Part shown: positions 32,223 through 36,385 of the stretch, piece after piece
How the letters are laid out: each line of letters starts with the position of its first letter
Numbering within the stretch: the stretch's first letter is position 1
Translations under genes and position numbers: made by a program
NCBI GenBank assembly: GCA_024640685.1
Contig: JAHEEN010000008.1
Span: 1 to 39,033, forward strand
Direction of reading: 5' to 3'
DNA from: Rhodospirillaceae bacterium
GTDB taxonomy: Bacteria > Pseudomonadota > Gammaproteobacteria > Steroidobacterales > Rariloculaceae
DNA length: 39,033 bases
Notes under the pieces: generated by a model
The model's input: only the letters and a program-made list of their open reading frames with translations
Database searches by the model: none
What the model was told of the DNA's origin: nothing

Positions 32223-33254
32223 TCAGCGGCCGGAGAAGCGTCGCGCATTGTCTGGGTCGCAAGCGAATCCCAAGTACTCGAAGTGCGGCGCGTAGTACCA
32301 GTTAAGCGTCCCGGCGAACGGCTCGGCGAGATACTCGGGGTCCTCGAGCTCGAAATCGATGACGATGTGCGTGCGATCCTCGCTCAAACGAAACCGTTCG
32401 ACGACGCGCTTACCTAAACCAGAAGGCACGCCCTCCGCCCGCGCGGGTCTGCCGAAGAACGGCGCGCGATTGAATGAAAAGTTCGTCGTCTCGACGACGA
32501 GCACATCGCCTTCCCAGCGCCCGATCGAATGCCCTTGATTGCTTCGTTCGCTGCCGTCCAGGTGGCTGCGTCCGTCCATAAAGACCGTGCGCTCGACGTT
32601 GAAGCGCTCGTTACGCATGAGAATCACGTCGTCCCCGAGAACGATCTCATTGAGGTACGGCGCGACGAGTAGCGTCGGCGTCGGCGGAGCGATGCACTGC
32701 GCCGACGGATTCTCGGTTCGTATATCGTAGGCTGCTTGCGCGGCGATCGCTTTCGGCGTCAGCTCGACCTCTGCCCAAGCCGCGTAATAAGGCTCGAAAT
32801 CGCCGACGCTGAGCTCCCAGATGCCGGCCATGTCCTCGGCGCGGGCCAACGAGTCGGCGTCATCGGTGCCTCGTAGGAAGTATGACCGCGCGGACAGCGT
32901 CGCGCCGTTGCTCTTCGTGGCAGCGATCAACAGCCCATGCTTGCGCGCGACGTTTCTGTCCGGATTGATGCGCACGCTGATCTGCTCGCCCGGGACGAAC
33001 GACTCGCGCGTCCAGCCGCTGCGGGTCAGGATCGGCGTCGCGTCGGTCTCGACCTCCCACTCGACGAGCTCGCCGGCCTCGTCGCGCGTCTCTACGTAGA
33101 TGTAGACGTGCGGATTGGCCCAATTGAAACGTGTGACGGTGCCCTGGAAGGCCACGACCTGTTGCCGATCGAAGATCGTCGCGCTGTGATGGGCGGCCGC
33201 GAGCGTCGGCAGGCCGCATGCGAGCGCCATGAGTAAAGTGGGCTTGATCGGCAC
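32223..33254 (-). CDS. Secreted DUF6152 family protein
   Basis: From GTG 33254 (GGAG seven bases upstream) this is a 343-residue protein with signal peptide LLMALACGLPTLAAAHHS. The mature N-terminus HHSATIFDRQQVVAFQGTVTRF followed by NWANPHVYIYVE is the hallmark of DUF6152, where the leading histidines may bind metal. The rest is beta-rich and contains IGRWEGDVLVVETTNFS, a segment shared with related secreted proteins of this group. Function unknown; such proteins are abundant in proteobacteria and acidobacteria rich in PQQ enzymes. It is divergent from the E1 alpha gene across 117 bp. Confidence 0.75.
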   Translation of the reverse strand: MPIKPTLLMALACGLPTLAAAHHSATIFDRQQVVAFQGTVTRFNWANPHVYIYVETRDEAGELVEWEVETDATPILTRSGWTRESFVPGEQISVRINPDRNVARKHGLLIAATKSNGATLSARSYFLRGTDDADSLARAEDMAGIWELSVGDFEPYYAAWAEVELTPKAIAAQAAYDIRTENPSAQCIAPPTPTLLVAPYLNEIVLGDDVILMRNERFNVERTVFMDGRSHLDGSERSNQGHSIGRWEGDVLVVETTNFSFNRAPFFGRPARAEGVPSGLGKRVVERFRLSEDRTHIVIDFELEDPEYLAEPFAGTLNWYYAPHFEYLGFACDPDNARRFSGR

Positions 33255-33371
33255 GACAAGTCTCCGCTTACGTCGGCATAACGTGTATACCACAGTGCGG
33301 GCGGCGACTTTCTGTACAATGGCCGGGCGGGCGGACGCCTGGTGGCTTCCCGGCCCGCGGGAGGTGAAACC

Positions 33372-34691
33372 ATGACTCAGAACATCGGTCGGGTCGACCG
33401 ACGCACGCTCCTCAAGATGATCGGCGCGGCGGGCGCATCGGCAACAGTCGTCTCCGCCTGCGGCATCCCACCGGGGAATGCCGCCGCAGGGCCTGCCGGC
33501 GTCACCGGTGCCGAGTTCGGCAAGTCGGTACGGCTCGCGACAGCGGGCCCCGGCGGCAACAAAGCCTGGCGCCCGGGCGACGCGATCAAATTTCTCCCAC
33601 CGGAAGCCATGCCGACACGCGGCGCGGCCGCCGACACGCTCGCGGGGCTACCGAAAGCCAAGCTGCTCGAGTTCTACCGACTCATGCAGGCAAGCCGCCG
33701 CTGGGAAACGACGATGAAGGACTTATTCCTCGCGGGCGAGGACGGCCTCTACGGCTCGTTTCACACCTACGCCGGCGAAGAGGCGATCGCTGTCGGCTCG
33801 ATCGGCGCGCTCAACGACGACGACTACATCGCGAGCACGCACCGTGGCCATGGCCACCTGATCGCGAAAGGCGGTGATCTGGACAAGATGTCCGCCGAGA
33901 TTTTCTTCAGGCAAGAAGGCTACAACAAGGGCTACGGCGGCTCGATGCACATCACCGACATGTCGAAGGGCATCATGGGCATGAACGGCATAGTCGGCGC
34001 GAGCTTCTATATGGCGGCCGGTGCCGCGTTGCGCGCGAAGGTGCGCGGCACGCAGCAGGTCGCGGTTGCCTATTTCGGCGACGGCGCAGCCGCATCACCT
34101 TATTACTTCAGTGCCGTGCGCTCGTGCGTCAACGAAACATTGCCGGTCATTTTCGTTAACGAGAACAACTTCCAGTACATGGCCAACCCCATGGCCAACA
34201 CGGTGCCGACGAAGTACGTGGCCGAGCTCACGAAGGGTCTCGACATCCCGCACTTCGTCGTCGACGGCAATGACATTTCGGCCGTCTACGATGCAACGCG
34301 CCAAGCCGTCGAGCATGCTCGCGCGGGCTTGGGCCCTAGCGTCATCGAGGGCATCACGTATCGCTGGTACGACCACTCGGGCTTTGCCGGTGGGCGCGTC
34401 GGTGAGGATGCGGCGATAGGCCTGCCTTACCGCACTGACGAGGAAGTGCGCGCCTGGATGTCGCGCGACCCGCTACCGCGCTACAAGCAGTGGCTCGTCG
34501 CGATGGATCTGGCTACCGAGAGCGAGCTTGCCGATGTCGAGGCCAAGGCGCAGGCGGCCGTCGATGCATCTGTCGCGTACGCGCGTGCGGGCACTGACCC
34601 CAACCCGGAGGCCGGTGTGCTCGAGACGCACGCATCGGGGGCCGTAGCAGCCACGCAGTTCTACAACCGCCGCGGCATTGCCACGAGCTAG
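33372..34691 (+). CDS. 2-oxoacid dehydrogenase E1 alpha subunit with Tat/lipoprotein signal
   Basis: This 439-residue protein begins at ATG 33372, with GGGAGGTG just upstream. The first 30 residues form a twin-arginine signal (VDRRTLLKMIGAAGASATVVSAC) ending in a lipobox VSAC with Cys30. The catalytic part starts near residue 95. It shows HRGHGH (158-163), GYGGSMHI and the thiamine-diphosphate motif from GDG (237-239) to NN (265-266), 30 residues as expected. Pyruvate/acetoin/branched-chain E1 alpha proteins are cytoplasmic and about 330-400 residues, so the added N-terminus is unusual. The neighbours are E1 beta, a zinc-finger protein and a cytochrome c lipoprotein; no E2 or E3 gene is adjacent. 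TACAAT at 33315-33320 is a possible -10 box. Confidence 0.85.
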   Translation: MTQNIGRVDRRTLLKMIGAAGASATVVSACGIPPGNAAAGPAGVTGAEFGKSVRLATAGPGGNKAWRPGDAIKFLPPEAMPTRGAAADTLAGLPKAKLLEFYRLMQASRRWETTMKDLFLAGEDGLYGSFHTYAGEEAIAVGSIGALNDDDYIASTHRGHGHLIAKGGDLDKMSAEIFFRQEGYNKGYGGSMHITDMSKGIMGMNGIVGASFYMAAGAALRAKVRGTQQVAVAYFGDGAAASPYYFSAVRSCVNETLPVIFVNENNFQYMANPMANTVPTKYVAELTKGLDIPHFVVDGNDISAVYDATRQAVEHARAGLGPSVIEGITYRWYDHSGFAGGRVGEDAAIGLPYRTDEEVRAWMSRDPLPRYKQWLVAMDLATESELADVEAKAQAAVDASVAYARAGTDPNPEAGVLETHASGAVAATQFYNRRGIATS

Positions 34692-34703
34692 GGGGAAAGA
34701 GCC

Positions 34704-35687
34704 ATGGCGATCAAAAACTATTATTACGCACAGCTCGAAGCCGTCGCCCAGGAGATGCGCGCGAACCCGGATATGGTGTTCTTCTACGAGTACCAGTCAC
34801 CGATCTCGGTATCGCCGACCGGTGAGGTACTCGATCTCGCGCGAGAGTTCGGCGACGTGCGCACATCCGGCCGCGGCTGGCCGATCGACGAGCAGTGGAT
34901 TGCGGGTGCCGCCATCGGCGCGGCGACCGCAGGCTCGAAGGCCATCGCGCGACTGCCGTCGATGGCGCAGATCTACGCGATCGAGTACGTCTACAATCAA
35001 GCAGGCAAGATCCGCTCGATGACGGGCGGTCAGGCGAGCATGCCGTTCGTGCTCTGGGTCGACGGCTCGGGCCGACGCCGCGGCAGTGCCGGTCAGCACA
35101 CCGACGTTGGCGCCGAATCGCTGTACGTGAATCTGCCCGGCGTCAAGGTCGTCGTGCCGTCGAATGCGTACGACGCGAAGGGCCTGCTCGTTGCCGCAAT
35201 TCGCGATCCGGATCCCGTGACTTATCTCGACTATCCCGAGGTCAAATCGGGCCAGCAACCCGACGTGCCCGACGAGGCCTACGAGGTTCCGCTCGGCCAA
35301 GCCGCGATCCGGCAGGAAGGCACGGATCTGACAATCGTCGCCTGGGCCCCCGCGACGATCGACGTCGCGCGCGCGCTGCCTACGCTCGCTGAAGCCGGTA
35401 TCAGTGCCGAGTTCATCGATCCGCGCTCGCTAAAGCCGCTCGACGTCGATACGCTCGTGCGCTCGGCCGAGAAGACCGGGCGACTGCTAGTCGTCGAGCA
35501 CGGCCACTACACCGGCGGCTTCGGCTCGCACGTGATCGCCGAGGTCGTGCAGGCGGTCCCGGGCATTACGGCGCGGCGAATTGCATTTCCCGACGTGCCC
35601 GGCCCCGGTGCCGCCGTCATGATGGACTGGCTGCGCCCGGATGCGCCGAAGATCGTCGATGCCGCCAAGCAGCTCGTGAATGCCTAG
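34704..35687 (+). CDS. 2-oxoacid dehydrogenase E1 beta subunit
   Basis: This 327-residue transketolase-type beta subunit shows the thiamine-binding strand with Glu in DEQWIAGAAIGAATAGSKAI and the later GQHTDVGAESLYVNLPGVKVVVPSN. The C-terminal domain follows (TDLTIVAWAPATIDVARAL, GRLLVVEHGHYTGGFGSHV). Length and order are normal for pyruvate or acetoin dehydrogenase E1 beta. GGGGGAAAGAG precedes the ATG, 12 bp after the alpha gene. It has no signal peptide of its own; if the alpha subunit is exported folded by Tat, the beta subunit would have to travel with it. The stop overlaps the next gene by eight bases. Confidence 0.85.
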   Translation: MAIKNYYYAQLEAVAQEMRANPDMVFFYEYQSPISVSPTGEVLDLAREFGDVRTSGRGWPIDEQWIAGAAIGAATAGSKAIARLPSMAQIYAIEYVYNQAGKIRSMTGGQASMPFVLWVDGSGRRRGSAGQHTDVGAESLYVNLPGVKVVVPSNAYDAKGLLVAAIRDPDPVTYLDYPEVKSGQQPDVPDEAYEVPLGQAAIRQEGTDLTIVAWAPATIDVARALPTLAEAGISAEFIDPRSLKPLDVDTLVRSAEKTGRLLVVEHGHYTGGFGSHVIAEVVQAVPGITARRIAFPDVPGPGAAVMMDWLRPDAPKIVDAAKQLVNA

Positions 35688-35973
35688 CGACAACTGCCCG
35701 CGCTGCGGCGAGCCGCTCGCCGCGCAGACCGTGCGCACGGCAATCTGGCAGGGCGAGCGCCTCGCAGTCGTCGAGGACATTCCGGCATTCGTCTGCAGCG
35801 GCTGCCTCGAGCAGTTCTACGACGATGATGTCAGCGATGCGCTGCGCCGCCTGACCGAGCACGGCTTTCCGGGCGACGACGCGCTGCGCGAGATCGCCGT
35901 GCCGGTGTTCTCGCTCGACGGCCGCGTGCGCCGCCGCGCCGCCGCAGAGGACGCGGATGTCGACGTTGTTTGA
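35680..35973 (+). CDS. YgiT-type zinc finger protein
   Basis: This 97-residue protein opens MPSDNCPRCGEPLAAQTV and continues to VCSGCLEQFYDDD. This CxxC-CxxC ribbon with a WQGERLAVVEDIPAFVC core is the YgiT-type domain found in the N-terminus of MqsA and in many stand-alone proteins. No helix-turn-helix domain follows, and no MqsR or RelE-like toxin is adjacent, so it is not a clear antitoxin. It overlaps E1 beta by eight bases and the cytochrome gene by 17 bases, so all are translated as one coupled unit. Its role in this operon is unknown. Confidence 0.75.
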   Translation: MPSDNCPRCGEPLAAQTVRTAIWQGERLAVVEDIPAFVCSGCLEQFYDDDVSDALRRLTEHGFPGDDALREIAVPVFSLDGRVRRRAAAEDADVDVV

Positions 35974-36385
35974 CGCTGCGCTGGTCACGCGACCGCACAT
36001 CGCAATCGGCGTCGCACTCTTAGCACTCGCTGCGTGCACGGCGGAGGATCAGAGCACACCCACTCCAGAACCGGCGCCCGCGCCGACCGAGCCCGTCGAT
36101 AGCGGACCGATCACGATCGATCTCGATGCGATCTTTCCGGCGGGCGCGGGCCGCGATCTGGTGCTCAACAACTGCCAGACCTGTCACACCTGGGTACCGA
36201 TCGTCGTGCTGCAGATGGACGAGGCCGCCTGGTACCGCAACGGCTTGAATCACCGCGGTCGCGTCGAGGCGCTCAGCGACGAGGACTTCGAGACGCTCTA
36301 CGCGTACTTGTCCGCGACGTTTACGCCCGAGCGGCCCGTGCCCGCATTGCCGGAGGCGCTGCTGCAGTCCTGGACGTCGAATTAG
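35957..36385 (+). CDS. Monohaem cytochrome c-like lipoprotein
   Basis: This 142-residue protein has a short N-terminus, hydrophobic core and lipobox LAAC, giving lipidation at Cys27. A proline-rich spacer follows (TPTPEPAPAPTEP). The haem motif is CQTCH (Cys73, Cys76, His77), with Met possibly in VLQMDEAAW as sixth ligand. A terminal helix, DEDFETLYAYLSATF, matches small class I cytochromes. It is the last gene of the E1 operon, overlapping the zinc-finger gene by 17 bases. It should be membrane-anchored in the periplasm and carry one electron at a time. Confidence 0.8.
   Translation: MSTLFDAALVTRPHIAIGVALLALAACTAEDQSTPTPEPAPAPTEPVDSGPITIDLDAIFPAGAGRDLVLNNCQTCHTWVPIVVLQMDEAAWYRNGLNHRGRVEALSDEDFETLYAYLSATFTPERPVPALPEALLQSWTSN

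Follow-up and report, generated by a model that had tools for sequence, protein, structure and literature searches.

An apparently Tat-exported thiamine-diphosphate E1 enzyme encoded in one operon with c-type cytochromes

Textbooks describe E1 enzymes as components of lipoyl complexes in the cytoplasm or in organelles, and to our knowledge no thiamine-diphosphate (ThDP) enzyme has been demonstrated at work in the periplasm. What, then, is an E1 with a twin-arginine (Tat) signal doing in an operon with a cytochrome c lipoprotein? The question is raised by a locus in a 39,033-nucleotide stretch of DNA, here called the window. A search of the open-access literature for an exported E1 or a periplasmic ThDP enzyme returned nothing relevant. 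We conclude that an E1 bearing an export signal and accompanied by its own cytochromes is real, conserved and apparently undescribed. A Tat-exported E1 for which cytochrome c replaces lipoyl-E2 is likely the best explanation, in the absence of biochemical or localisation data; the mechanism is well motivated and untested.

Organization, conservation and origin of the operon

The operon encodes E1α, E1β, a YgiT-like zinc-ribbon protein and a cytochrome, cytB (table 1). The initial annotation had placed the four genes 12 bp apart or overlapping, with no E2 or E3 gene adjacent, and both statements held. The coordinates give 12 bp between E1α and E1β, an overlap of E1β with the YgiT-like gene and an overlap of the latter with the cytochrome gene. 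Pfam and NCBIfam searches matched E1_dh (E1α), Transket_pyr and Transketolase_C (E1β) and YgiT_finger (zinc-ribbon protein). E1α scored under the PDH_E1_alph_y cut-off of NCBIfam, and Pfam matches of the window cytochrome were all sub-threshold. Divergent from the operon lies a gene for a DUF6152 protein (window 32223-33293, minus strand); distant relatives of both its halves are found downstream of the regulator/kinase pair of a same-genus genome (L065:5304-6558).

Table 1. Positions of the operon's genes and sequence features in the window.
Feature	Position	Strand	Support
E1α, 439 aa, ThDP-binding alpha subunit, 2-oxoacid/acetoin dehydrogenase E1 family	33372..34691	+	PF00676 E=3.7e-61; PDB 1ni4
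Shine-Dalgarno GGAGGTGA, few bases 5' of E1α ATG	33360..33367	+	read directly
Tat signal and lipobox: DRRTLLKM, hydrophobic GAAGASATVVSA, Cys30	33372..33461	+	R10 R11 invariant; pN/pS 0.20
RR codons of E1α Tat signal	33399-33404	+	
ThDP motif of E1α, GDG(236)...NENN(266)	34077..34169	+	GDG, NN kept in all spanning rows
E1α active-site loop YDHSGFAGGRVGEDAAIGLPYR, including His335	34368..34433	+	family conservation
E1β, 327 aa, without signal peptide	34704..35687	+	PF02779/PF02780
YgiT/MqsA-N-like zinc-ribbon protein, 97 aa, CPRC...CSGC	35680..35973	+	TIGR03831
Monohaem c-type cytochrome lipoprotein, cytB orthologue, LALAAC27	35957..36385	+	
cytB haem motif CQTCH	36173-36187	+	
cytB invariant second His	36251-36253	+	

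When one genome was scanned for each bacterial and archaeal species, 23 close homologues (62-75% identity) emerged, mostly in metagenome-assembled genomes (MAGs) of Bryobacterales and other Acidobacteriota, with two in Comamonadaceae MAGs. The gene order recurs, and the Tat signal and cytochrome co-occur. The initial annotation had described one CQTCH cytochrome, which is correct for the window (cytB); the complete cluster elsewhere has two in tandem, cytA-cytB. The genes E1α-E1β-YgiT-cytA-cytB formed an unbroken series in 18 loci and, as far as its contig extends, in a 19th (L005), so that YgiT-cytA directly follows E1β in 19 of the 21 loci continuing past E1β; the contigs of L007 and L023 end earlier and fall outside this count. 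The loci L009 and L012 were rejected as cytochrome-less exceptions, since the L009 genome has YgiT-cytA-cytB on the contig of its E1, about 10 kb farther downstream, and the L012 genome has it on a different contig. Cytochromes are present wherever a search was possible, beside the E1 in 19 loci and elsewhere in two genomes. Past these genes, the flanks were overall not conserved. The record of L012 is titled Acidimicrobiia and its E1 groups with Acidobacteriota, pointing to a mis-named bin or a transfer.

Neither the window nor the 312 kb surrounding the 23 loci yielded an E2 or E3/LpdA homologue, and an E2/E3 gene linked without a cytochrome in related genomes, which would have refuted the original proposal, was not seen. 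The E2 genes of the window genome sit on other contigs, so a lipoyl partner in trans is not excluded.

The Tat-E1 clade was monophyletic on a long branch (support 100/100), with the window E1 nested among Acidobacteriota (99/94 for the nine-row set). The window genome itself is probably gammaproteobacterial, with a 16S fragment 89% identical to Methylomagnum and 87% to Legionella. It alone carries the operon among 39 relatives (itself included) and among the 369 genomes of its class; there were 11 carriers in the 399 genomes of the class to which the L008 genome belongs, and 1 in the 301 of the L018 genome's family. The simplest interpretation is horizontal transfer. Assembly contamination is an unlikely explanation, as a same-genus genome without the E1 operon has orthologues of the flanking response regulator (82%) and kinase in the same order.

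Export signal, lipid anchor and active site of E1

The initial annotation had read a Tat signal and lipobox in front of an intact ThDP subunit, and this held. Directly behind a strong Shine-Dalgarno site, the E1α N-terminus (MTQNIGRVDRRTLLKM...VVSAC30) meets the criteria for a Tat lipoprotein: an RR motif, a hydrophobic stretch, a lipobox Cys and TatC in the genome, which also encodes cytochrome c assembly genes. The twin arginines were kept in 24 of 24 E1α proteins, as R10 R11 in the 23 aligned rows and in L022, whose split gene was read separately from the alignment (at L022:553-1958, E1α occupies two overlapping frames, reflecting a frameshift or an assembly error). Among close relatives, pN/pS was 0.20 in the signal segment, 0.25 in the linker and 0.09 in the E1 domain; the value for the signal segment indicates that it is translated and constrained. 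Invariant arginines, purifying selection and a gene order kept in 19 of 21 loci together argue that the Tat pattern is not due to chance. Also kept in the family were a lipobox or AxA-type cleavage site and a family-specific linker preceding the E1 domain. A downstream E1α start was considered and rejected on the basis of the Shine-Dalgarno site and the conserved N-terminus. Homologues lacking the extension would have counted against the proposal; none was seen, as all 23 carry it.

Could this be an ordinary cytoplasmic E1 with a merely Tat-like N-terminus, using unlinked E2/E3 in trans? E2 genes are indeed present elsewhere in the window genome, E1β carries no signal, and the nearest annotated plasmid relatives are acetoin dehydrogenase E1s beside E2. 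Against this stand the twin arginines in all 24 proteins, the Shine-Dalgarno site before the start, the purifying selection and the retained cleavage site and linker. Furthermore, the other E1α copies examined in related genomes had no such signal at their start. We regard this explanation as very unlikely.

We compared lipobox and AxA-type sites by eye, excluding upstream cysteines of the L019 cytA, which belong to an over-extended frame before the true start. To the extent that they were readable, the E1α, cytA and cytB proteins of the window and the Acidobacteriota loci carry a lipobox-type Cys (the E1α of L008 and L009 included), and all three lack it in the Comamonadaceae loci L018 and L019, where ordinary AxA-type cleavage sites are found. 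The joint loss of the anchor from E1α and both cytochromes independently supports a shared compartment, with the caveat that the switch rests on this one lineage. The signal and the anchor are read directly and export of E1α by Tat is well supported, while TatC-dependent export, lipidation and localisation are inferred. The membrane-anchored periplasmic dehydrogenase initially proposed is thus largely supported in its export and anchor, with the Comamonadaceae proteins lacking the latter.

The active site is intact. E1α GDG...NN and His335 and E1β Glu63 and His132 are invariant in the family and align with PDH E1, the two E1β residues with the catalytic Glu and His of PDH E1β (alignment to 3duf_B). 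The protein pair meets the criteria for the E1 family, namely an E1_dh alpha subunit, a transketolase-like beta subunit, the ThDP motif and the catalytic Glu/His. Pfam matched no FAD or Fe-S domain in the E1 subunits. Behind His335, the window E1α has a longer loop (DHSGFAGGRVGEDAAIGLPYR) than acetoin dehydrogenase E1α (GHFEGD...YR). In known E1 structures the alpha loop after this His is near the substrate entrance, so the longer loop may reflect remodelling to suit another partner.

Cytochromes and the proposed electron transfer

The two cytochromes are paralogues, with an identity of about 28-35% between cytA members and the cytB of the window. Having cytB without cytA, the window differs from every homologous locus with a complete downstream region; no cytA was found in the window genome (93% complete) when searched family by family. 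C26, C29, H30, H52 and Y70 were invariant in 26 sequences, with no invariant Met. In DHC, the sixth ligand H51 sits 17 residues before Y69L70 (PMC2909971), and the same 17 residues separate H52 from Y70L71 here. Profile matches to DHC and to the CGRCH...H segment of quinohaemoprotein amine dehydrogenase were weak (E 0.003-0.007) and align the second His. An AF2 model of cytB (pLDDT 88.5) gave SorB as best Foldseek match, weakly by E value (0.15) and with probability 0.99. The criteria for a bis-His class I monohaem cytochrome are met: CxxCH, a His at DHC-like sixth-ligand spacing and no conserved Met. A sixth-ligand candidate is thus seen directly, and the invariant second His at this spacing suggests bis-His haem. 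A low-potential bis-His haem in cytA and cytB is likely, as inferred from sequence without ligation data. Separately, cytA (e.g. L018:7193-7591) has two more conserved Cys, in CxxCHxxxC and a C-terminal CTPF/CAPY, which could form a disulfide.

In the mechanism that we propose, E1α and E1β would fold in the cytoplasm with ThDP/Mg2+ into the usual heterotetramer, and the Tat signal on alpha would export the folded complex. E1β, lacking its own signal, is assumed to hitchhike. Mature E1α would be lipid-anchored, or soluble in Comamonadaceae. The periplasmic E1 would form a ThDP-enamine from a 2-oxoacid or acetoin-like ketone, and the enamine would give up its two electrons one at a time to cytA and cytB (cytB only in the window), the co-encoded monohaem cytochromes with probable bis-His ligation, from which they would enter the respiratory chain. 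Acyl-ThDP would then be hydrolysed or its acyl group transferred, without CoA, NAD or lipoate. The co-export of beta, the electron handover to cytochrome c, the substrate and the localisation, all part of the initial annotation, remain inference, as does the product.

In acetoin dehydrogenase systems, the first enzyme is measured as an acetoin:DCPIP oxidoreductase, with the dye DCPIP in the presence of ThDP and Mg (PMC4275255), which indicates that electrons of an E1 enamine can reach an acceptor outside the enzyme. By analogy, a dedicated periplasmic cytochrome in place of the dye might be a plausible natural route. The nearest annotated plasmid relatives are of the acetoin dehydrogenase type, and one of them adjoins a gene for 2,3-butanediol dehydrogenase, making acetoin or pyruvate-like 2-oxoacids the first candidates for a substrate that is undetermined. 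We lean, with reservation, towards a bolder reading: a periplasmic ThDP respiratory dehydrogenase with direct transfer from enamine to bis-His cytochrome, without lipoate, CoA, NAD, flavin or Fe-S.

A pair of MBOAT and DltD/SGNH-like genes directly follows cytB at L006:11723-14196, L018:8081-10511, L019:6053-8444 and L067:1897-4255, and was not seen in the window or the remaining loci. Its presence in three separate lineages is suggestive of a link to envelope acylation.

Alternatively, the exported E1 might be a non-oxidative ThDP enzyme (a decarboxylase or carboligase, e.g. acetoin-forming), with the cytochromes serving another linked function. E1 enzymes are capable of carboligation, the E1αβ and YgiT-cytochrome modules are separated in two genomes, and the MBOAT and DltD/SGNH-like genes of some lineages leave room for cytochromes serving a wider envelope process. 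However, the cytochromes co-occur with E1 wherever this could be checked and switch anchor with E1α, and a non-oxidative enzyme needs no electron acceptor; we consider this alternative unlikely. Less likely still, the exported E1 might make an activated acyl group as its real product, the cytochromes acting as oxidant, and the MBOAT/DltD-like pair would use this group to acylate an envelope polymer. The position of the pair directly after cytB in the four loci favours this reading, but neither the window nor the other loci showed the pair and no acyl acceptor was identified, rendering it very unlikely.

The zinc-ribbon protein, conserved in the family, is cytoplasmic by sequence. Its AF2 model (pLDDT 85) best matched MqsA in Foldseek (3gn5/3hi2/3ga8), and by NCBIfam and Foldseek it qualifies as an MqsA N-terminal zinc domain, sharing the predicted fold and CxxC pairs with the MqsA (YgiT) antitoxin. 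Unlike MqsA, it sits in a metabolic operon and no second (HTH) domain was matched in its 97 aa: NCBIfam matched the finger only, and Pfam gave weak sub-cut-off matches. With E1β and a cytochrome as neighbours, no adjacent toxin and no second domain, a toxin-antitoxin role is unsupported. Its role is unexplained; as a guess, this cytochrome-linked protein might help assembly or regulation.

Comparison with known systems

If the preferred reading of an exported, cytochrome-coupled E1 is true, it would define a new class of respiratory dehydrogenase, coupling ThDP chemistry directly to cytochrome c beyond the inner membrane, and its Tat cargo would be a folded, cofactor-loaded heterotetramer. It also opens the question of whether an E1 enamine uses a natural cytochrome as one-electron acceptor, a role mimicked in vitro by DCPIP-type dyes.

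The acetoin dehydrogenase E1 (AcoA/AcoB) shares the alpha/beta ThDP architecture, the THRGHGH and GGSMHI motifs and the catalytic residues, its alpha subunit being 40-43% identical to the window E1α. Acetoin reference operons adjoin E2 and/or LpdA and lack a Tat signal, whereas the window family has the signal, no E2/E3, a longer alpha active-site loop and its own cytochromes. PDH and branched-chain E1 enzymes (1ni4, 1w85, 3duf, 1um9) share fold family and catalytic residues but are cytoplasmic or organellar and acylate lipoyl-E2; the NCBIfam scores of the window protein are far under the PDH cut-offs. The pyruvate:quinone oxidoreductase PoxB and pyruvate:ferredoxin oxidoreductase also use ThDP and, dispensing with lipoate, hand the electrons of the enamine to a redox carrier. 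They hold FAD or Fe-S within the enzyme and act on the cytoplasmic side, whereas the acceptor here would be separate periplasmic cytochromes. The low-potential cytochrome DHC (2fwt) shares, in its N-domain, the CxxCH and the distance between the sixth-ligand His and the YL signature; DHC is dihaem, whereas cytA and cytB are separate monohaem lipoproteins. SorAB and quinohaemoprotein amine dehydrogenase are exported dehydrogenases with a small dedicated c-type cytochrome, and SorB, the cytochrome subunit of the sulfite dehydrogenase SorAB, is the best fold match of cytB. Their cofactors are molybdenum or quinone, in contrast to the ThDP of the system described here.
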